A stretch of DNA of 64,000 nucleotides from Candidatus Gastranaerophilales bacterium (lineage in GTDB: Bacteria; Cyanobacteriota; Vampirovibrionia; Gastranaerophilales; Gastranaerophilaceae). Positions within the stretch are counted from its first letter, which is position 1, and each line of letters opens with the position of its first letter. Location: the NCBI GenBank assembly GCA_944323705.1, contig CALUTM010000005.1, positions 1-64,000 on the forward strand. The letters run 5' to 3'. The notes under the pieces are model-generated. The model made no database searches. It saw only the letters and a program-made list of their open reading frames with translations, and was not told the DNA's origin. Shown here one piece after another: positions 51,424-63,300 of the stretch. The position numbers and the translations under genes were made by a program.

Positions 51424-52008
51424 TTACTTATTTTCAATAAAAGTAAGCAATAATGAATAACTACCACTATCTGCTTCACGTAACGCAGAAATGTATTCCT
51501 TTCTTAACTCAGAAATTTCTGTTAAATTACCAGAACCCCAATTTAAAGCCGGTAATCCAAAATGCTTCATTAATAAATCTGCCATCAATCGAGAAATTCT
51601 ACCATTGCCATTCGGGAAAGGATGAATTTGGACTAATCGGTGATGAAACCTTATTGCAATCTCCTTTGGAGAAAAAGTCTGATTATCAATCCAAAATTTA
51701 ACATCATCTAATAAAATTCTTAATTTTGGTTGTATTTCATATGGAGCAACACCAATATTCCTTTCACTTGTTCTAAAGGAACCTGCCCATTTCCATATAT
51801 TACCAAACATCTTTTTGTGCAAGTTTTTTATAAATGTTTCATTTAAAATATCTTTCTTATTTTTTAGAAGCCAAATTTCAGTATCAGCAATACCTTTTGT
51901 TTCTAGCTCATTAAGTTCAGCTCTGGTTGTAATCCACTTTGCTTTTAGTTGTTGCTTCTCTTCTTCAGTAAGAGGAGTTGAATTATCATCAGTTTCAAAA
52001 ATATTCAT
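51424..52008 (-). CDS. Fic-family protein (mobile mystery protein B type)
   Basis: This 194-residue protein carries the Fic catalytic loop HPFPNGNGR (near residues 129-137), so AMP or another nucleotide moiety transfer to a protein is likely. The segment FGNIWKWAGSFRTSERNIG upstream of the motif is typical of the branch known as mobile mystery protein B. An inhibitory (S/T)xxxE(G/N) helix is not obvious. It lies just downstream of an HTH partner of the A type, as is usual. The two probably act as a toxin/antitoxin-like or regulatory pair carried by mobile DNA. Confidence 0.88.
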   Translation of the reverse strand: MNIFETDDNSTPLTEEEKQQLKAKWITTRAELNELETKGIADTEIWLLKNKKDILNETFIKNLHKKMFGNIWKWAGSFRTSERNIGVAPYEIQPKLRILLDDVKFWIDNQTFSPKEIAIRFHHRLVQIHPFPNGNGRISRLMADLLMKHFGLPALNWGSGNLTEISELRKEYISALREADSGSYSLLLTFIENK

Positions 52009-52023
52009 AGTTAATTTACCCCC

Positions 52024-52470
52024 TTACTCATCTTCGTCCCAAATTCTTGCAATGTTACCATCTAACAATTCTTCAATTATATCTTTTAATAGGTCATCAG
52101 TTTTTACTAATTGATTTTCTAATTCCATATTTTTATTAACTTTGTCTAATATTTTTTGAGCTTTCTTTTTTGCTTGATTATAAATAATATCATCAATATG
52201 TTCTCTTGGAATAAATGCATAAGTAAAGTCGCAGTTTAACACGTCTGCGATTCTTTCCATAGTAGAAATTTTTACATTTCTCTCATTTTTTTCCATTGCA
52301 ACAATTCTTGGCTGGGAAATTTCAAGTCTTTTGGCTAATTGTGTTGTTGTCATACCAAGAAATTCACGAATAGTTTTTAACCAGCCTTGTTGAGGCCTAG
52401 AAATAATAGCTTTTTTTAAAGCTTCAAACTTCTTTTGATAAGAGCGTCTTAAGATTTTTTTATTATTCAT
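52024..52470 (-). CDS. HTH regulator (mobile mystery protein A type)
   Basis: This 148-residue protein has an XRE-type HTH at about residues 35-90 (IREFLGMTTTQLAKRLEISQ, then PRIVAMEKNERNVKISTMER). An N-terminal basic helix and an acidic C-terminal helix follow the pattern of mobile mystery protein A. It is upstream of the Fic gene by 15 bp and probably represses their shared promoter at 52503-52530. Pairing of A and B is well known in mobile regions, but their function is not. Confidence 0.85.
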   Translation of the reverse strand: MNNKKILRRSYQKKFEALKKAIISRPQQGWLKTIREFLGMTTTQLAKRLEISQPRIVAMEKNERNVKISTMERIADVLNCDFTYAFIPREHIDDIIYNQAKKKAQKILDKVNKNMELENQLVKTDDLLKDIIEELLDGNIARIWDEDE

Positions 52471-52656: not shown

Positions 52657-53436
52657 TTATTTGTTACAAAACCTCAAATCGTCGAGCTTATAATCCTCTA
52701 ATCCCATTTCTTGTTTTATTTTATAAAAATCTTTTCTGATTTTGCGCTTAAGAGATTTTTTCTGCTGTTCATTGCCTGTTAAAATGGTGTTCAAAGGCTG
52801 TTTTAATGTAATCATTTTTTGAACAATTGGAACAAGATAAGGATACTTTCTTTTTGTTATCTTAAAAAGTAGCGCAAGTTGCTCAGGTGTTAAAACCGGC
52901 TTTTCTCTTTTGGGTATTTTTGCGATTCTTTTTACTTCAAAAATACAAGTTTTTTCAATATAACCTTCGTTTTGAAAATATTTTATTATCTGATTTAAGA
53001 GTGCCAAAATATTTTTAATTCTTGGCTCTGAAACTTTATTTTCTTGTAAATATCTTTTAAAACTTTGTGCGTCCTTAATCATTATATTTTTAAGTAAATC
53101 GACCTTAAAATATGGAATTATTTTTGAATAGATAAATGTTTTATATGCTTGAAAAGATTGCTCTGTAAGTGTTTGTTGTTTTAAATCTAAAAACATTTCA
53201 CAAGCTTGAACAACTGTGATATCAGAGTTTTTGCATTCAATATTTTTATCAACAATTTTGAATTTTTCTTCCGTTTTTACTAATTCTACGTATTCAAATT
53301 TATTTCCGCTAAGCTTTATATTTTCAGACTCTTGCAAAAATCCTCTAGCAACATCGGAATCAATTTCACAGAACATAGTAATATCTTCGAGAGTGAATGT
53401 TTTTAATCTTTTTGCGACTTTAAGAATTTTATCCAC
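52657..53436 (-). CDS. Tyrosine-recombinase-like protein without catalytic residues (third transposition gene)
   Basis: This 259-residue protein begins with a winged-helix-like segment (residues 1-55). A phage-integrase core-binding-like domain follows (about 80-170; MFLDLKQQTLTEQSFQAYKT). A reduced catalytic-domain remnant follows (VLTPEQLALLFKITKRKYPY), which then jumps to KLDDLRF and stops. The first catalytic Arg (GLR box), the HxxR box beyond LR, and the Tyr are all missing. It overlaps the MuB gene by 8 bp, so it is translated as the third gene of the transposase operon. It may be a DNA-binding accessory factor rather than a decayed integrase. Confidence 0.75.
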   Translation of the reverse strand: MDKILKVAKRLKTFTLEDITMFCEIDSDVARGFLQESENIKLSGNKFEYVELVKTEEKFKIVDKNIECKNSDITVVQACEMFLDLKQQTLTEQSFQAYKTFIYSKIIPYFKVDLLKNIMIKDAQSFKRYLQENKVSEPRIKNILALLNQIIKYFQNEGYIEKTCIFEVKRIAKIPKREKPVLTPEQLALLFKITKRKYPYLVPIVQKMITLKQPLNTILTGNEQQKKSLKRKIRKDFYKIKQEMGLEDYKLDDLRFCNK

Positions 53437-54118
53437 AAAGCACCTCCTTTGCTATATTTTCATCAATCTGAGTAAATCCATTTGCTTGTGCTACTTTTTC
53501 TAAAACATCGATACTATTCACGATTTGTCTGAAACTTTTTGTCTTGTTATGAATCAGATATATTACCTCTTTTGTAATTTCGACTTCTGAAATTTCTTCT
53601 ACGATTTGTTTAATATCCACGTATTCAAACTCAGTAAAATTATAGATTTCAGAGATTCTATCAAATAGATGTGTATGTTTTTTGAGTTTATGCTTTGCAA
53701 GTTGCATTCCAACCAAAACTATCGGCACGCCTGTTTCGTCGTGCAAATCTCTTAAAGTTTCAATCGTTCTGAAATCAGCAAGCAAGTAATCAATTTCATC
53801 AACGATAACCATCTGTGGATTTATTTTTAAAGCGTTAACGCATTGTCTAAAAATATCAGCAGTATAAAATCTTGGAATTTCATCAAGCTCTTTTGCAATT
53901 TCTTCCAACATCCACTTTGGACTCATAGAATTTGTCGCCCTAACATATATTATTGCATCATATTGAATCGATAGATAAAGCGCCGTTTTTGTTTTTCCGA
54001 GTCCAGCATTTCCATATACAAGACCAATCTTAGAAATATTATCAGGCTTGTTTTTTAAGTTATGTATTAAATTGATAAATCCTTTGACATTTTTCGTTTT
54101 AACAAATATCGGTTTCAT
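53429..54118 (-). CDS. MuB-type AAA+ transposition ATPase
   Basis: This 229-residue ATPase matches MuB, the target-DNA selector and transposase activator. Walker A is GLVYGNAGLGKTKTALYLS near residue 32, Walker B is MVIVDEIDYLLADF near residue 98, and a sensor-type LVGMQLA follows near 137. The C-terminal lid ends with FRQIVNSIDVLEKVA. It lacks the long N-terminal HTH region of Mu MuB. It overlaps MuA by 20 bp. Confidence 0.92.
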   Translation of the reverse strand: MKPIFVKTKNVKGFINLIHNLKNKPDNISKIGLVYGNAGLGKTKTALYLSIQYDAIIYVRATNSMSPKWMLEEIAKELDEIPRFYTADIFRQCVNALKINPQMVIVDEIDYLLADFRTIETLRDLHDETGVPIVLVGMQLAKHKLKKHTHLFDRISEIYNFTEFEYVDIKQIVEEISEVEITKEVIYLIHNKTKSFRQIVNSIDVLEKVAQANGFTQIDENIAKEVLCG

Positions 54119-56066
54119 ATTCTTCGAACTCCTTTGTTTCTTTGTAATTAGTTAGCCAAACCCTATCGTCATTACAAGTGCAACCATATTTCATTAAGTA
54201 TTCATATCGATCTCGACTTGTCTTGAATAATGGCTTGACAGCAGGATTATATTTTTCAGACTTTTCTTTTTTGACTTCTATTTTTGGGGGTAAATATATC
54301 TCTTCAGCCTCATCTATCTCACACTTCAAAATCTCTAAATCCTCAATATTCAAAAACTCCTTACAAGCTTTTATTGTCCTATTTTTAAGTTGTTTTTGTT
54401 TCTGAATCTTTTGCTTATAATCTTCAACATCCTTAATTTCGCCCGTATAATGTGCAAGAGGATGAGTGAGCGTTATTCTATCAGCTTTACATAAAAACTT
54501 GCCACTGGTTGTATAAACATTGATATAGTTTAAATCGAATAAACTATACTTTATTATCACCTTTTGTCTCAAGCCATAAAGTGTGTCGTTGTAATAATCA
54601 GCTTTCAAAAACCTTATTCCCTGACTTGTAATGGTTTTGATTTCTTGAGCCATCATCAAATCATCTAACTCTCTAGGGTTTATTTCTTGTCTCTCAATAC
54701 TATCTACCATTTCTTTAATACTTCTTGTTTTATCATTCGGACAAGGTAAAGAAATTTTATACTCAAGCCAACTGTTTATCATCTGAATTGTTTGTTGGAT
54801 AGTCGGAACAAATTCTTGATGGATTTCACTATGGAACTTTTCATTTCTTCTTAGTCTAGCAGGTTTATTTTCTATACTGGTTCCGATGTAGCTTGGTAGT
54901 AGCTTTTCAAAACTTTCCTGCATTTCTAAAAAGAATCGCTCAATAACTTTTGCTCTGGCATTATATGGATTAGCAAAAACTGTTGATATACCAAGTTTTT
55001 CATAAATTCCTTTTAATCCAACTTCATTGAAGTCAGTGCTACCCATAAAGTATTTACCCTTGAAAGCCTTGCCATTATCAAGATAAACAAACTTTGGGAT
55101 TTTGCCTAAATTCAAAATCGCATTTCTTAAAGCCGATGCTATATTTTGCGTATTTTCTTCAAGCATTATTTCGTAGCCAACCAATGCTGTTGATTTCCAA
55201 TCTAAAAAGCCAATCAATGTTGCTCTACAAGGTTTGCCTGTGAAAGGATTTATTACTTGGAAGTTTAATCGTTTTCCGTCAGCTACAAGAACTTCGCCGA
55301 CTTCAATCTTAGAAAGATCTCTTTTAATATGTGGGATAACCTCTTCTTTTAAAGTTTTTTCGCCATCACGCAAAAGTGTCCATTTATCAAAATAATTCGC
55401 CTTATACCAATTTGCAAACTTTCTAAACGTAGGCGGAGCAGGTATATATTCAGCCCCCTGAGTTTTAAGAACATATTGAGTTAAAGAAATGGCTTTCCCG
55501 ATGCTGAATTTATTCGGATGTAAAAGCAGTTTCAAAAATATTTGTTTTTCGTATTCCGTAAGGCAAGTTCTTGAATAATCTTCATAATGATAATTTGGAA
55601 TTAAAAGCTCGTAATTATTACTATTGCCTAAAACACGTTTCCATCTTTGAAGCGTACCAATTGATACTTTACCAAGTTTTGCATAAATTTCAGGATACAA
55701 AACTTGCGCATTGTATGCGCTCAAAAAATCAGTATCAAATTGTGTTTTATTTTGTTGATTTTTACGCTGATTTTTCCAAAGATTTAATAAATCCAATCTT
55801 GCAAGCGCAATTGTTTTAGCCTTATCTGGCTTATGAAAATCGAGTGGTGCAGGAAGCTGTTTTTCAGTACAACTTGGGACAAATTTTGAATAATATTTTT
55901 CCTGCAATTCTGGCTCAATACTTGATAAGAAAATCTCAAAACTCCTTCCACCCTTTACTGTTATTTCACGAGTTTGGTATTTACCCCTTGAAAGCCTAAT
56001 AGCACGAGTACTAACACCTTTGAGTTCTGCTAATTCTTTGATTGTAATGTATTTTTCTTCGTTCAT
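54099..56066 (-). CDS. MuA-type DDE transposase
   Basis: This 655-residue transposase starts with an HTH (TIKELAELKGVSTRAIRLSR) like the Mu/Tn end-binding domains, then a helical linker. The RNase H-fold core has the catalytic residues: Asp in EVLVADGKRLNFQ (near 264), Asp in FVYLDNGKAFKG (near 325) and Glu in KVIERFFLEMQ (near 371). A beta-barrel domain and a charged tail follow, including a Cys-containing YGCTCNDD segment. It cuts and joins transposon ends with MuB. Transcription runs away from the divergent small HTH gene, as in Mu-type repressor/transposase switches. Confidence 0.94.
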   Translation of the reverse strand: MNEEKYITIKELAELKGVSTRAIRLSRGKYQTREITVKGGRSFEIFLSSIEPELQEKYYSKFVPSCTEKQLPAPLDFHKPDKAKTIALARLDLLNLWKNQRKNQQNKTQFDTDFLSAYNAQVLYPEIYAKLGKVSIGTLQRWKRVLGNSNNYELLIPNYHYEDYSRTCLTEYEKQIFLKLLLHPNKFSIGKAISLTQYVLKTQGAEYIPAPPTFRKFANWYKANYFDKWTLLRDGEKTLKEEVIPHIKRDLSKIEVGEVLVADGKRLNFQVINPFTGKPCRATLIGFLDWKSTALVGYEIMLEENTQNIASALRNAILNLGKIPKFVYLDNGKAFKGKYFMGSTDFNEVGLKGIYEKLGISTVFANPYNARAKVIERFFLEMQESFEKLLPSYIGTSIENKPARLRRNEKFHSEIHQEFVPTIQQTIQMINSWLEYKISLPCPNDKTRSIKEMVDSIERQEINPRELDDLMMAQEIKTITSQGIRFLKADYYNDTLYGLRQKVIIKYSLFDLNYINVYTTSGKFLCKADRITLTHPLAHYTGEIKDVEDYKQKIQKQKQLKNRTIKACKEFLNIEDLEILKCEIDEAEEIYLPPKIEVKKEKSEKYNPAVKPLFKTSRDRYEYLMKYGCTCNDDRVWLTNYKETKEFEEYETDIC

Positions 56067-56568: not shown

Positions 56569-57420
56569 ATGACAAGTTCAAATTTAATATTAAATAGAGT
56601 TTTCTCTAAAAATACTTTAAAAGCGTTACTTGATGGTGATAAAAATGCGGGTAATGCATATTATGCTGTAATCAAAAGATATTTAATATCATCGTTAAAT
56701 AAAAAAAATAAAGATTTAATTAGTGAAATCTACAAAACATTAAAACATACTTATCGTAACGAATATTATTATAAAAATACCTTACTAAATAATTTGTTAT
56801 TTAAATTTCACAATCCATTAAAAACTACTGCTTTGACAGAGATTCCCGTTTCTAAATCTATTGCAGACTTTATTTTGTTAAACGGAAAAGCTACTGTCTA
56901 TGAAATTAAAACTGAATTAGATACTTTTGATAGATTGAATTCTCAATTAATTAATTACTATAAAGCATTTGATAATGTATGTGTTGTTGTCCCTGAAATA
57001 AAACTAGAGACAATTAAAAATAAATTAAAGAATCATAATGTTGGAATATATTACATATCAAAACGTGGTGCATTAAAAAAATATAGAGAACCTATTTCAT
57101 ATATTGCTGAATTAGATTATGATACAATCTTTAAAATTTTACGGAAATATGAATATGAAAATATTATCTCAAAATATTATGTACTACCAGATGTTTCACA
57201 ATTTAAATACTATCAAGCTTGTAAAGAACTCTTTAAAACAATTCCATTAGATAAGGTGTATAGTGATTTTAAAGTGCAATTAAAACAACGAACTAAAATA
57301 AATTTAGAATTAATACAAAATGTTCCGAAAGAAATAAAAAGTGTAGTATATTTTTCTAAATTAAAAGAAACTGAGTATAAAACCCTAGAGACCTTTTTAG
57401 AAAGAAAGTTTGGAGGTTAA
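56569..57420 (+). CDS. sce7726 family protein (PD-(D/E)xK nuclease-like)
   Basis: This 283-residue protein resembles the sce7726 family. A segment IADFILLNGKATVYEIKTE (near residues 96-114) has the D...ExK spacing of PD-(D/E)xK nucleases, and the helical N-terminal 60 residues fit the family. The rest is helical with TELDTFDRLNSQLINYYKAF, a typical follow-on to the nuclease core. The next gene belongs to sce7725, its usual partner. The role is probably nucleic-acid cleavage in a defence or toxin module; experimental function is not known to me. The first codon has no ribosome-binding site. Confidence 0.82.
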   Translation: MTSSNLILNRVFSKNTLKALLDGDKNAGNAYYAVIKRYLISSLNKKNKDLISEIYKTLKHTYRNEYYYKNTLLNNLLFKFHNPLKTTALTEIPVSKSIADFILLNGKATVYEIKTELDTFDRLNSQLINYYKAFDNVCVVVPEIKLETIKNKLKNHNVGIYYISKRGALKKYREPISYIAELDYDTIFKILRKYEYENIISKYYVLPDVSQFKYYQACKELFKTIPLDKVYSDFKVQLKQRTKINLELIQNVPKEIKSVVYFSKLKETEYKTLETFLERKFGG

Positions 57421-57424
57421 ATAT

Positions 57425-58339
57425 ATGTACTTCCCATATTTAAGAGGACGCCAATTTGAACTAATAGCATTAAGAGAATTAATTGAAAATAATCTAATTG
57501 GAAATCATATATATCCTGTTATTGAACCTGTTAAATTATCTAGTACTTTGACAAAAACTTTAAATGTTTTCAAAGAAAATAATAGAAATTTAGCTATTAT
57601 CATGAACCCATGCGTTGGGAATCTTGATTTCAAAAAACTTAATGATTCAGAAGATAAAGTTTGTAAAACAATGAATGAAATCATTAATATTTCTAATATA
57701 AAAAAAGGCTTTCACCTTAGTAAATTTATTCCAGAATATACTGATAATATTCAAAACATTGTCTTAATTGTTAAAAATCGTGACACTATAAAATCATATA
57801 ATGAAATCTATTCAAGAGAGATCGAACCTGAGTTTACATTAATGCTAGATGAAGCTAGAAGAATTATTCGAAATAGACATCGAGTTCTTTTAAATGATAA
57901 TTTCAATAAACAAGAAAAAAATGCAAACTATGAAAACACTGATGAGTTTTATACAAATGATCATTTATACTATAAAGATGATGGTTACGTTGGTTTTTCA
58001 GATTTTTCTATTGTTGGTGATGAATATTCAGAGTCAGGTTTTGCACCATATGCAGTAGCGATACATATTGTTTATTTTGATGAAAATAACGATTTAAGAG
58101 TGAGACATTTTGTATCAGATACCAATGATGATTATACAGATACAACTGGAAAATTCTATGAAGCATTAGAAAAATTAATTGCTTGGAATCAAGAAATGAA
58201 ATTAGATACATATGCTATGAGAACATTTCAAAAGCTATATGACGAGGAATCATATCCAGGTTTAGGAACTGTAAAAAAACTCTCTATTATGCATCATATA
58301 GAGCTTGTAAGCAAATTTCTTGATGAACAGGATCACTAG
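57425..58339 (+). CDS. sce7725 family protein (beta-family-like)
   Basis: The N-terminus MYFPYLRGRQFELIALREL and the VIEPVKLSSTL segment identify the sce7725 family, related in pattern to phage beta-family proteins. The protein is about 304 residues, probably a barrel-like fold with an aspartate- and tyrosine-rich middle (DGYVGFSDFSIVGDEYSESG). No catalytic motif can be assigned. I chose the ATG after GGAGG, 4 bp past the sce7726 stop. The family is found mainly beside sce7726, so the two are likely to act together. Confidence 0.83.
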   Translation: MYFPYLRGRQFELIALRELIENNLIGNHIYPVIEPVKLSSTLTKTLNVFKENNRNLAIIMNPCVGNLDFKKLNDSEDKVCKTMNEIINISNIKKGFHLSKFIPEYTDNIQNIVLIVKNRDTIKSYNEIYSREIEPEFTLMLDEARRIIRNRHRVLLNDNFNKQEKNANYENTDEFYTNDHLYYKDDGYVGFSDFSIVGDEYSESGFAPYAVAIHIVYFDENNDLRVRHFVSDTNDDYTDTTGKFYEALEKLIAWNQEMKLDTYAMRTFQKLYDEESYPGLGTVKKLSIMHHIELVSKFLDEQDH

Positions 58340-58342
58340 TAT

Positions 58343-59455
58343 ATGAAATTTTGTAGTAATTGTTTTAACGATACTGAGATTAAAAATATTATAAATAGTA
58401 TAAATAATACGGATGTTTGTGACATTCATAATGTTAAATCTGAACATATATATGATACTGATAAACATGACAATTTAGTTCCTTATTTTGAAGCATTAGT
58501 TGATGTATATACTGTAGCGTCAGAATCTCAGATTGAAATTGATAAAGCAAAATACGTCCGTTTGAAATATGATTTACTTTATAATTGGAAGATTTTTAAT
58601 GATGTTTGTAAACCTGAAAATGTCCATAACATTGTAAAAAGTATATGCAAGGAAAAATATGAAGAAAGTCCAAGTCTCTTTGATAATGATATTGTTATTG
58701 AGGAGTTATTTGACTTGGAATATAAAAAAGAATATTCTTTACTTAAAACTTATTCTTGGGATGATTTTAAAACTAGCTTGATAAAGAATAACAGATACCA
58801 TACAAATATATTTAATAAAAAATTATTTGAACAATATTGTTGGGCAGCCCCTAAATTTTATTCTGCTGGTACAAAATTTTATCGTGGCAGAATTTCTGAC
58901 AAGAATGGATATTCTTTAGAGGATATGGGGTGTCCTCCTTTAAAAAATTCTAAAGCAGGAAGAGTAAATGCAGAGGGAGTTGAGTGTCTTTATCTTGCAA
59001 ATAACATTGAAACAACAATAAATGAAGTTAGAGCAGGTGTGGCTGACTATATCACAATTGCGACCTTTGAACTTCAGAAAGATATTATTATTGCGGATTT
59101 GAAAAATATAAATAAAATTAGTCCTTTTTCAATTCCTGATTCTAATTTTCTAGTTAATTATGCTATAAATAAGGAGCATCTTTCTAAAATTAATGAAGAA
59201 ATGTCAAAGGTCGTTCGTTTAAGCGATACAAAATTAGATTATATTCCAACTCAATACATATGTGATTTTATTAAAACTCTTGAGAGAGAGGGCTCTACAA
59301 ACGAAGTAGTAAGATTTGCTGGAGTAGAATATGATAGTACTTTAAGTTCGAATGGTTATAATATTGCCATATTTGACCCAACTTTATTTAAAGCTACAAA
59401 TATTGAGATACGCCAAATTAATTCTTTAAAATACGAATCAACAAAAATTATGTAA
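58343..59455 (+). CDS. RES-domain protein with HEPN/RES-type N-terminal region
   Basis: This 370-residue protein has a C-terminal RES domain (about residues 165-345): FYRGRISDKNG near residue 180, a GRVNAEGVECLYLANNIET segment near 208 and EVRAG near residue 231. RES proteins are NAD+-degrading phosphorylases and are often toxins. The N-terminal 40 residues have CSNC and CDIH pairs (a possible zinc knuckle), and a helical region follows, as in HEPN/RES N-terminal domains. It starts 3 bp after sce7725, so it is co-translated. No small antitoxin gene follows, so sce7726/sce7725 might control it or trigger it. Confidence 0.85.
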   Translation: MKFCSNCFNDTEIKNIINSINNTDVCDIHNVKSEHIYDTDKHDNLVPYFEALVDVYTVASESQIEIDKAKYVRLKYDLLYNWKIFNDVCKPENVHNIVKSICKEKYEESPSLFDNDIVIEELFDLEYKKEYSLLKTYSWDDFKTSLIKNNRYHTNIFNKKLFEQYCWAAPKFYSAGTKFYRGRISDKNGYSLEDMGCPPLKNSKAGRVNAEGVECLYLANNIETTINEVRAGVADYITIATFELQKDIIIADLKNINKISPFSIPDSNFLVNYAINKEHLSKINEEMSKVVRLSDTKLDYIPTQYICDFIKTLEREGSTNEVVRFAGVEYDSTLSSNGYNIAIFDPTLFKATNIEIRQINSLKYESTKIM

Positions 59456-59500: not shown

Positions 59501-59517
59501 CACAAAACGTTACATAA
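59501..59517. repeat. Candidate right terminal repeat of the mobile element
   Basis: CACAAAACGTTACATAA; its reverse complement resembles 49378-49393. It partly overlaps the recombination-site region that follows. Confidence 0.35.
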
Positions 59518-59518
59518 T

Positions 59519-59546
59519 TGGTAACACTTTGCTAATTTTGTTACAT
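59519..59546. other. Left putative recombination site (11-6-11)
   Basis: Reading the minus strand: arm ATGTAACAAAA, centre TTAGCA, arm AAGTGTTACCA. The first arm and centre (17 bp) are identical to the site at 60241-60268 in the opposite orientation. An extra half-site GTTACAT lies at 59509-59515. Confidence 0.6.
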
Positions 59547-59606
59547 AGTAAGACACGTTTCGTGGCTTCAGAGGTAATATGAACAACAGTAAAGGAGTAT
59601 ATTGAT

Positions 59607-60152
59607 ATGACAGCAGTAGAGCCAATTAGAGATAAAAGTTTAATAGATATGGTTAAACGAATTTTAAAAAGACAAGGTTCAAGAAATCATTTATTATTTA
59701 TTATGGGAATAAATATCGGATTAAGGATTTCGGACACTTTAAAATTAAAAGTCAAAGATGTCAGAAACAAGGATTATATCGAACTTTACGAACAAAAAAC
59801 AAAGAAATTTAAACGATTTCCTATCGTTGATGCATATAAGCCAGATTTGGAAGATTTTATTATTGGAAAAGATGATGAAGAGTGGCTCTTTGCAAGTCGT
59901 AGAGGTGGTAAACCAATAACAAGAATACAAGCATATAGAATATTACAAGAAGCCTGCTTTGAGGCTGGAATAACAGCAAGAATTGGTACGCATACATTAA
60001 GAAAGACTTTCGGCTATCATTTTTATCAGGAGCATAAAGATATTGGCTTGCTACAATACCTTTTTAACCATTCTTCTCAACGGGTAACCCTTTTATACAT
60101 AGGTATTACACAGGAACTTATTGATAGTAAACTCTGTAGTTTCGCTTTATAA
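59607..60152 (+). CDS. Short tyrosine recombinase (FimB/FimE-sized)
   Basis: This 181-residue integrase-fold protein consists almost only of the catalytic domain, like FimB/FimE-type invertases. All active-site residues are visible: Arg in GINIGLRISD (near 38), Lys in YEQKTKK (near 60), HTLRKTFGYHF (His and Arg near 131), the NHSSQRVT histidine (near 152) and the nucleophile in TLLYIG (near 160). The ATG follows AAAGGAG. Sites with 17 identical bases lie on both sides in inverted orientation, so it may flip its own segment. Otherwise it could integrate or excise the nearby element. Confidence 0.9.
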   Translation: MTAVEPIRDKSLIDMVKRILKRQGSRNHLLFIMGINIGLRISDTLKLKVKDVRNKDYIELYEQKTKKFKRFPIVDAYKPDLEDFIIGKDDEEWLFASRRGGKPITRIQAYRILQEACFEAGITARIGTHTLRKTFGYHFYQEHKDIGLLQYLFNHSSQRVTLLYIGITQELIDSKLCSFAL

Positions 60153-60184
60153 ATTGTAACAATTTTATCACAATTGTAACAATT
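60152..60184. repeat. Two direct copies of AATTGTAACAATT
   Basis: Perfect 13-mers at 60152-60164 and 60172-60184, 20 bp apart (about two helical turns), starting at the stop codon of the recombinase. They overlap a possible -35 (TTGTAA) of a rightward promoter with TAAAGT about 18 bp later. Confidence 0.7.
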
Positions 60185-60240
60185 TCAACCAAAACGCTAA
60201 AGTTTTTTAGTAATTATGCCGATATAACTACTAAGGTTAT

Positions 60241-60268
60241 ATGTAACAAAATTAGCATTTTGTTACAT
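60241..60268. other. Right putative recombination site (perfect 11-6-11 dyad)
   Basis: Arm ATGTAACAAAA, centre TTAGCA, arm TTTTGTTACAT: perfectly symmetric 11-bp arms around a 6-bp centre, the geometry of Xer/dif-type core sites. It lies 42 bp upstream of the giant ORF. Confidence 0.65.
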
Positions 60269-60310: not shown

Positions 60311-63300
60311 ATGGCAGGCGAAGATTTTTTCAAATTTAATAAAGGCAATGAGTTTAGGTTTTCAAACTTTAGAGAAATAAAGGAAGAAGACCTAAAAGGT
60401 GCTGATGAAAAAACAAAAAAACTCTTTAATATTTTTGCAGGCGAAGATAAAATCTTGCAAGAAGTTGAAGCAAAGAGCTTGTTTAATGTTTTAAAAACTG
60501 CTGCCGGCGATAATCAAGTATTAGAAGACAACGAAATTAAAGCATTCGCAAAAGAACATATCGGCGAAGAAGTTGATACAAATGCTTTAATGACTTTTGT
60601 TAATAACATTTTTGGAACTAAGGAAAAACCACAAACCCAAGCTGTGCAAGTCGCAAAGGGTTATACTGCACAAAAACAACAAACATTCTTAGAAGAAGCA
60701 GCTTGTAAAGAAATTGTTATTGATATTATTGATGAAAATCTTTCAGAAGCTTATGAAATATTGAATAGTCAGTATTTAGGTTCAATTTCAGGTTGGCACG
60801 ATGAAAAAAAAGACAAAAATGATATTTTAAAAACATCTAATGTATCAAAAGTTTTGGATTATCAAAACGCTGGTATTGAATGGATGAACAAAGCAAAAAT
60901 AGCTCCTCCAAACGGACTTACTAAAAAAGAATACTATGAAGGCAATAAACAAAGAATCAAAGATATGATTCTTACTCGTGTTTTAGTGCTAGATACTAAT
61001 ACCAAATTCAAAGAATTAAAGAACAAATATTCTGAAGAAAAACTTGCTCAAATTATTGGGGATTATGTTGAACAATTATGCTCAAATGCATCAATGGAAG
61101 ATTTAAAAGATATTCAGAAACAATTTGTTTCATATAGTGGTGTAGAGGAAATTCAAGCATTAGAAAATGTTGTAGATAATGCTATCAAATTTAATGCTGA
61201 TAAAAACAAGCCTATGCCTTATAGCGAAGTTCCTTTACCAAAATTTGACAACTCAAAAGGTATAGTTCCTGAATATTGGAATTCTGATGAGCCAATATCT
61301 TTTGAAGAAGTTTACAAAATCGAAAGAGGAACTGAATATTCACAATACAAAATTGAACAATATGCACTAGCTAAAAAAGAAATGGAAGTAGTTGCTAATG
61401 CATATAACAAAAAGCAACAATTTATCGAATTTGCAGAAGGTTTAAGAAAAGATGAAACTTTAAACATAGATGAAAAGACACAAAAAGTTTTAGAAGGCTT
61501 TGCAACATTCTATGCGTTAGCTGAAGATGGTGGTTTAAGTCAGTTAAAAGAGTTAATCGCTGAATCTAAATTACCTATTAGCATTGATGAAAACGGATTT
61601 AATTTTGGTACGTTAGATGATAATGCTAAAAATAGAGCATTAAATTCATTATTAAAACTAGCTCAACAATCAAAAGAAAAAGAATTTGAAGAATTTTTAA
61701 ATGGTAAAACAATTGAAGATTATCAAATAGCTTTAGTACAAGCTCACGATGAAGCTATCGGGGATGAAAATGGGAAAATGATGGCTGAAGCTATGAAGAA
61801 TGATAACCTAACTTGTATTCAAAGATGGACAGGCAATACATCAATGGCAGGTATGGGTATGACAATTGTTGGTGGTATTCTTTGCTTTACTCCACTAGCA
61901 CCATTAGGGGCAGGAATGATTACAGTTGGTAATACTCTTGCAATTGGTGGTATGGTTGCAAAAACAGGCTTAGGTGTTACTGATTACGCAACTAAAGATG
62001 TTCAAACTGCTGAAGAAGCTGAGCAATTAACTAAAGACTTTATTATGGATGCAGGTGGTTTTATCATAGGTATGGGAGCAGGCAAAGCTGGCTTGAAAGC
62101 ATTTAGTAAACTTATTGATAAAAAGCTTGTTGCTGTTTTCGGACAACAAATTGCATCAGGTAATAAAATGCAAGCATTAAAGACTGTGTTTACGAATCCT
62201 GAATATTTAAAGAATTTTATGACGGCAGCAGGAGCAAAATTAAGTGCTGACTTTGTAATCTCTTATGCAGGGGATTTGGCAATGATGGGTATTTTAGATA
62301 CACAAGACGATTGGCAATCTCTATTAAAAGCTAACTTAACAGGTATTTTGGTCGGTATGTCCGGCGATATTAAAGATGTTTCTGGTGTTGGCAGACCTCG
62401 TAACTTTGGAGTTTCTGATGGTGTAAAACCTATGACAGAGATGGATTATGGACAAAGACTGTTGGGTAATGATGTAACTGTGGCTGATCCCAAAACAGGA
62501 GCAACTGTTGAAGGAACTGTAACAGGATTGCATAATACAAACGGACAAGTTGAAATTGAAGTCAATGGACAAAGATATTCTACTAATGATGTCGCAGAAG
62601 TTAAAGGGGAAGCTGTTGTAGAAACTTCTTTATCACAAAAAATATCTAATGATAATCAAAGAATTACAGAATCAAAATTTGAAAGTAGTTTGAAAGGAAG
62701 GTTTAGTGATGAATTCGTGGAAAACTACCTTAAAGAAATAACTAACTATGTAAATCTTGAACAAGGAGATAAAAATTTTTACAAAATTGTTGGCGAGTTG
62801 GGTACTCCAGAAATAATAGAAAATTGGCTTAAAAATTCATTAGAAGGAAAAACACTAACTCAGAAAATTAATTTCTTTAATGAAATTATGGCATTTCCTG
62901 AACTTTTTAAACTTCAAAAAATGATAAAAGAAAATTCTATTGATGCTAAATTTGATAGAGTAACTGGAGAATCTATTCCAGCAATTCCACAATTCGTTAG
63001 AAAAATTATTATAGATAGTGGATTTTTAGCAAGCGATGTTAATACTAATTTTTCTAAAGATAAAACTAATATCAGAGCCTTAATTAGTGATTGTTTAGAA
63101 CATCCTAATGAATATAAATTATATCAAATGATTTTAGACAATCCTATTAATGCTAAATCTGATAGAATAACAGGCGAACCGATTCCTGATATGCCAGTTC
63201 AAGTAAGAGAAGCTATTAAAAATGGAGAGGTAGCCCCTACAGATACAAGCTTAGGTATGATTGATGTTAGAGAATTTATTACTGATTATTTAAACAATGA

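Follow-up and report, generated by a model that had tools for sequence, protein, structure and literature searches.

A probable phase-variation switch in a Gastranaerophilales genome: a small tyrosine recombinase inside the promoter segment that it would invert

The DNA window analysed here, a stretch of 64,000 nucleotides from a Candidatus Gastranaerophilales bacterium, very probably carries a self-contained phase-variation switch, in which a small tyrosine recombinase, P0001, would invert a segment of about 700 bp containing its own gene together with an outward-facing promoter of the sigma-28 type. Self-inversion of about 700 bp carrying the recombinase had already been proposed in a preliminary description of this DNA and, given the pairing of sites at 15 loci and the occurrence of both orientations among relatives, it remains the best reading. 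To that description we add the promoter within the segment, the target gene, candidate accessory half-sites and related sites across the genome.

P0001 (59607–60152, + strand) has 181 residues and a single Pfam domain, PF00589, which spans residues 12–166 (81.2 bits versus a cut-off of 27.1). Across 94 aligned sequences, R40, K64, K67, H129, R132 and Y164 never vary, and H155 is found in 93. The domain score and the R-K-H-R-H-Y set, together with the tree described below, place P0001 in the tyrosine recombinase superfamily and agree with the preliminary description of a 181-residue recombinase that has the full R-K-HxxR-H-Y set and little besides the catalytic domain. The nearest solved structures are Xer proteins (XerC-like 4a8e, 2e-9; XerH 5jjv, 6e-8). 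Assignment to XerC, XerD or XerA would call for a score above the equivalog cut-off and a two-domain protein of about 300 residues; P0001 has the catalytic domain only and scores 54–72 bits against cut-offs of 220–335 bits. It also scores below the NCBIfam cut-offs for the FimB/FimE-type tyrosine invertases (44.0 versus 221 bits for PRK09870 and 48.9 versus 222 bits for PRK09871). The earlier label 'FimB-like' thus suits the size and the presumed mode of working of P0001 but not its family.

Relatives of P0001 were detected in nearly all of the 383 family genomes, although the weak matches include ordinary Xer proteins. Close matches come from Candidatus Gastranaerophilales MAGs and from bacteria from yak and goat colon, and no relatives were seen in a scan of viral_contigs. 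Relatives of this recombinase of about 180 residues (phrog_216 family) are present in 2362 plasmid and 181 phage records, mostly labelled integrases. There were no spaced inverted repeats around the fragmentary matches in Siminovitchia or around the relatives in a goat-colon genome (genome_contigs scan), so that linkage to sites is not universal in the recombinase family, and about half of the recombinases examined have no detectable flanking site pair. In a recombinase tree, built by a quick method and with long branches flagged, one supported group (98) holds every recombinase encoded inside its segment, those encoded outside that have GTAAC-type sites, and P0002, a candidate trans-acting master from the same genome, whose group forms one clade (99) within it at an exact position that is not firm. 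P0001 itself is probably the invertase of its own segment.

The recombinase gene lies between two sites of 26–28 bp with a matching asymmetric core, TGCTAA/TTAGCA. The right site (60241–60268, + strand), ATGTAACAAAA-TTAGCA-TTTTGTTACAT, is a perfect 11-6-11 dyad, as had been noticed earlier. The left site (59519–59546, − strand) is inverted relative to it and reads, from outside to inside, GGTAACACTT-TGCTAA-TTTTGTTACA; it is imperfect on its outer side, with GGTAACACTT in place of TGTAACAAAA. The 17 bases that the preliminary description found to be identical on both sides and to face opposite ways, ATGTAACAAAATTAGCA, are located at 59530–59546 (−) and 60241–60257 (+) and have no other exact copy in the 1.93-Mb genome. 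As a whole, the inverted pair comprises 27 nt with 89% complementarity, 692 bp apart, and an equally good inverted repeat was found in none of 2000 first-order Markov shuffles of the 1.2-kb region. On its own, the right dyad stands out less in such AT-rich DNA, 11 paired arm positions having been obtained in 2 of 400 shuffles, and the strong evidence for the sites is comparative. The left site is bordered on the non-target side by an outer flank, AAAACGTTACATAATT (59504–59519), which carries at 59509–59515 an extra half-site, GTTAC, of a putative accessory kind. A reading as a dif/Xer site was dropped, as the sites are paired, inverted and multi-copy.

The stop codon of the recombinase gene is followed by the predicted promoter (60198–60225), the right site (60241–60268) and an ATG at 60311. 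The promoter, recognized by its motif TAAAGTTT-N12-GCCGATAT on the + strand, is of the sigma-28 (FliA) type, and two direct copies of AATTGTAACAATTT upstream of it (60152–60165 and 60172–60185) are possible accessory half-sites. The ATG opens the target gene (+ strand), which runs past the end of the window (64000) to contig position 65830 and encodes a modular protein of 1839 residues (MAGEDFFKF...). Since the promoter faces this start codon, the window would represent the ON state.

Sigma-28 (FliA)-type promoters were defined as sequences resembling TAAAGTTT-N11-GCCGATAA in a genome with a FliA gene. The predicted promoter has such a sequence, with a spacer of 12 bp in the window and 11 bp in many relatives, and the genome encodes a FliA_WhiG sigma factor (232.7 bits versus a cut-off of 189.6). 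Complete sets of flagella genes are known from some Gastranaerophilales (PMC4040986). The sigma-28-like motif has 20 further matches in the genome, most of them with an ORF start no more than about 110 bp downstream; thus, it precedes gene starts elsewhere and is not confined to switches. Several genes behind these other copies seem to be paralogs of genes under switch control, such as those for the MSND..VYQFL and MGM.ASQARLL proteins.

No Pfam model matches the 1839-residue target protein. Over the first ∼770 residues, identity is 96% to the version in a related genome, G342, and 83% to a paralog on contig C59 of the window's own genome, which is likewise preceded by a related site. Beyond that point both differ from the window protein, and the G342 version has a GNAT acetyltransferase domain there. 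The N-terminal part is therefore constant and the C-terminal part variable among relatives, as in polymorphic effectors; the C-terminus encoded in the window has an HEMTH motif and no Pfam match.

On the other side of the switch, genes of the sce7726 and sce7725 families, the former with a weak match to a PADLOC model, and then a gene for a RES-domain protein directly before the switch occupy positions 56569–59455. They are preceded by TniA/TniB-like genes for transposition, together with a protein that has just the SAM-like N-terminal domain of integrases (52657–56066), a set that also adjoins the switch in G342, and by a pair of mobile mystery proteins A and B (XRE-like regulator and Fic/DOC-like protein; 51424–52470).

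Comparison of the stretches around ∼95 relatives of the recombinase in Gastranaerophilales family genomes yielded 15 two-site loci, the window included, in which inverted sites based on GTAAC-N14-GTTAC enclose the recombinase gene. When both are read inwards, the two 26-mers at each locus are identical at 22–26 of 26 positions, with a single exception at 18. The asymmetric core is identical within the locus in 14 of the 15 cases and varies between most loci (TGCTAA, TAACAA, TAGTAA, TGATAA, TAGGCA, TACTCA, TTCCAA, TAGATA, TTGACA and others). Such pairing within loci, combined with differences between them, is required by a recombinase that exchanges strands across an overlap. The window segment has the makeup of an inverton: inverted sites with an identical core enclose it, and a promoter predicted from its sequence motif lies inside and faces outward to a gene start. 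The order of elements is conserved as well and comprises the recombinase, one or two TTGTAACAA-type elements (in most loci), the sigma-28-like promoter, the site and the start codon of the outside gene. In loci with the recombinase inside, the promoter follows the pattern TAAAGTTT-N11/12-GCCGATAT, diverged in a few, and is found at the 3' side of the recombinase gene.

Both orientations of the cassette occur among relatives. In 10 of the 15 two-site loci, an extra half-site (GTTAC or GTAAC) lies within 16 bp outside one site, and never outside the other; on the side opposite to it, a gene start abuts a site, within 80 bp in nine loci and at 362 bp in one. The flank with the outer half-site is joined to the 5' end of the recombinase gene, the ON arrangement, in five loci (the window, L057, L061, L073 and L214) and to the promoter end, the OFF arrangement, in five others (L058, L060, L063, L064 and L068), counts that are drawn from MAG consensus sequences and span different species, mostly with different target genes, rather than one population. 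The window and L057 are near-copies, which leaves about four independent ON cases versus five OFF. A check of related genomes, which the preliminary description had recommended, has thus revealed both joinings, in different species; the window locus itself is known in one orientation only. No locus was found in opposite orientations in two genomes, and L066 and L067 share the same orientation. The clearest pair consists of the window (ON) and L058 of G326 (OFF), which belongs to another species and has a recombinase 97% identical to P0001: the outer flank and arm, AAAACGTTACATAATTGGTAACACTT in the window and AAAATGTTACGTAATTGGTAACACTT in G326, share 24 of 26 bases and are joined to opposite ends of the cassette. 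In genome G297, judged by the neighbouring gene, one pilin-type segment (L107) lies the opposite way round from L113a, L119, L130 and L131, which are paralogous rather than orthologous loci.

From this anatomy, we infer that P0001 would bind the two inverted 11-6-11 sites and that strand exchange within their shared asymmetric core would invert the ∼700-bp segment, presumably reversibly in this strain. In the ON state, as seen in the window, the promoter would read across the right site into the gene of the 1839-residue protein; inversion to OFF would turn it towards the 3' end of the convergent upstream gene and leave the target without it. The locus-specific core would act as an address, so that related recombinases with similar arms would not cross-react in strand exchange. 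In several loci, a related motif is also present at the 5' side of the recombinase gene, so that the motifs flank the non-target site on both sides in ON and are split between the two sites in OFF. One might speculate that this difference in motif distribution biases the direction of switching.

Related sites are scattered across the genome. The TGTAAC-N14-GTTACA dyad has 14 copies in it, versus one for the control; in several places they form inverted pairs with reverse-complementary cores, and many are located upstream of large or pilin-like genes. A second recombinase, P0002 (contig C10), has no sites of its own. Its ortholog (at least 73% identity) is present in 12 of the 58 genomes of the genus, in one case truncated at a contig end (86%). 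Across these 58 genomes, dyad counts range from 0 to 63, with a median of 16 in the 12 genomes with the ortholog versus 0 in the other 46 (Mann–Whitney p = 5e-8, uncorrected for kinship). Because the ortholog accompanies many dyads, P0002 is likely to be a trans-acting master invertase that works on scattered sites. The highest count, 63, is that of G297, where the dyads mostly form pairs ∼140–340 bp apart beside prepilin-like genes of the FTLAELLIV and FSLMEMMIV types and others. There (e.g. L107–L132), core families tend to follow gene families, TACCTA going with FTLAELLIV and TACTCA with FSLMEMMIV. At L045 (contig C2, 85835–86799) and L135 (G357, C6), an inverted site pair lies between two divergent prepilin-like genes, 75% identical in DNA at L045, and flipping would switch from one gene to the other. 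A second switch design was also seen, with a sigma-28-like promoter fixed outside and a segment of 117–142 bp between inverted sites that separates it from the gene (L110, 3434–3671; L118, 3330–3589; L129, 3380–3638; L053, 2834–3064).

Two features of the window weigh against a switch, namely the imperfect outer arm of the left site and the promoter spacer of 12 rather than 11 bp. Drift of that arm would fit a decayed or locked switch, one that inverted earlier in the lineage and is now fixed ON, and so would the state of both relatives with the same target gene, G342 and G244, whose switches look broken. In G342 (L057), the recombinase is 98% identical and the cores are mismatched (TGCTAA/TTTCTA), TTTCTA at the right site having apparently come from replacement of the promoter–site stretch; in G244, the recombinase is fragmentary while the right site and the promoter remain. 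Both are probably locked ON. The preliminary description had tied its reading to survival of the 17-bp identity in close relatives that keep the gene; the identity is lost in G342, which we read as locked, but kept in G326, where the recombinase is 97% identical and the two sites form a perfect 28-bp pair. In the window, however, the P0001 reading frame is intact with all its catalytic residues and the two cores match exactly, which makes a locked state here unlikely. Inversion of the window sites in trans by a P0002-type master, with P0001 as passive cargo, would draw on the presence of P0002 in this genome and on the association of its ortholog with many related sites. Yet the trans sites in this genome mostly have TGTAACACAAT arms, whereas those of the window locus are AAAA and their core is found nowhere else in the genome. 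As indirect evidence, paired sites surround the resident recombinase in G326 (which lies outside the genus genome set examined for P0002), L060 and others; we consider this explanation very unlikely.

A mobile element with the two sites as its ends, serving the integrase as attachment sites, would account for the annotation of the wider family as integrases in phages and plasmids and for the near-identical recombinases (97–98%) that adjoin different genes in different species, an arrangement that does indicate movement of the cassette between loci. However, integrative elements leave direct repeats, and the cores here are asymmetric and inverted, so that recombination between them would invert and could not excise; furthermore, the cassette has no other mobility gene. 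This explanation is highly improbable, and an integrative element with directly repeated attachment sites is at odds with the inverted cores of the window. Repressor operators with cores paired by chance could likewise be dyads placed ahead of start codons, and short dyads are frequent in AT-rich DNA, but an operator needs neither the exact pairing of locus-specific asymmetric cores, observed in 14 of 15 loci, nor the opposite joining of the outer flank, and this possibility is scarcely credible.

Precedents exist for invertible promoters, for recombinases inside their own segments (Hin, PMC5903667; PsrA, PMC12324116) and for master invertases (Mpi, PMC5903667). In the literature searched, which included few subscription papers, no paper links Gastranaerophilales with phase variation, and we found no case, in this lineage, of a tyrosine recombinase carried by a sigma-28 promoter cassette whose cores are specific to the locus; the present case would therefore be an early description of phase variation in this uncultured gut group related to cyanobacteria. 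The design, a tyrosine recombinase that would flip its own promoter cassette, with a flagellar-type promoter and address-like core hexamers, is unusual and offers a testable model for the orthogonality of related recombinases within one genome and for the relation between a local self-switch and a genome-wide master invertase. The mini-recombinase family, widely annotated as 'integrase' (phrog_216, with thousands of plasmid and phage records), may hold more invertases.

A broader scheme, which in our judgement could as easily prove wrong as right, would have one family of mini tyrosine recombinases operate in this non-photosynthetic gut lineage of cyanobacteria in three modes: carried within a sigma-28 promoter cassette and flipping it, located next to the segment, and working in trans across the genome as a master of up to ∼30 segments. 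Core hexamers would serve as addresses and cassettes would be portable between genes; outer and inner half-sites would make the two states differ and so bias the direction of switching, and production of variable surface or effector proteins would be tied to the flagellar sigma factor.

Among known systems, XerC, XerD, XerA and XerH with dif share the 11-6-11 site geometry and include the nearest solved relatives of P0001, which differs in lacking the N-terminal core-binding domain, in its paired and inverted sites and in failing the XerC/D/A cut-offs. The fim recombinases are located outside their switch, unlike P0001, which rides inside its segment and fails the PRK09870 and PRK09871 cut-offs. 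The fim switch of E. coli (FimB/FimE; for UPEC recombinases, see PMC6083910) is alike in its small catalytic-only tyrosine recombinase, its invertible promoter and its single target turned ON or OFF. Mpi, the master invertase of Bacteroides fragilis (PMC5903667), and RecV of C. difficile (PMC7446863) each serve many scattered invertible sites with one recombinase, the likely mode of P0002; Mpi, however, is a serine recombinase and P0001 is of the local, self-linked type. Hin of Salmonella, a serine invertase inside its own segment (PMC5903667) that requires Fis and an enhancer (PMC3798978), resembles P0001 in that the recombinase gene and an outward promoter share the segment and inversion turns the enzyme's own gene, but it belongs to another enzyme class, and the window promoter is of the sigma-28 type. 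PsrA, from the pneumococcal cod locus (PMC7096588, PMC12324116; gene order hsdSC–psrA–hsdSB, PMC12324116), is a tyrosine recombinase whose gene, like that of P0001, sits among the inverted repeats on which the enzyme acts; PsrA shuffles hsdS coding sequence, whereas the window cassette would invert a promoter.
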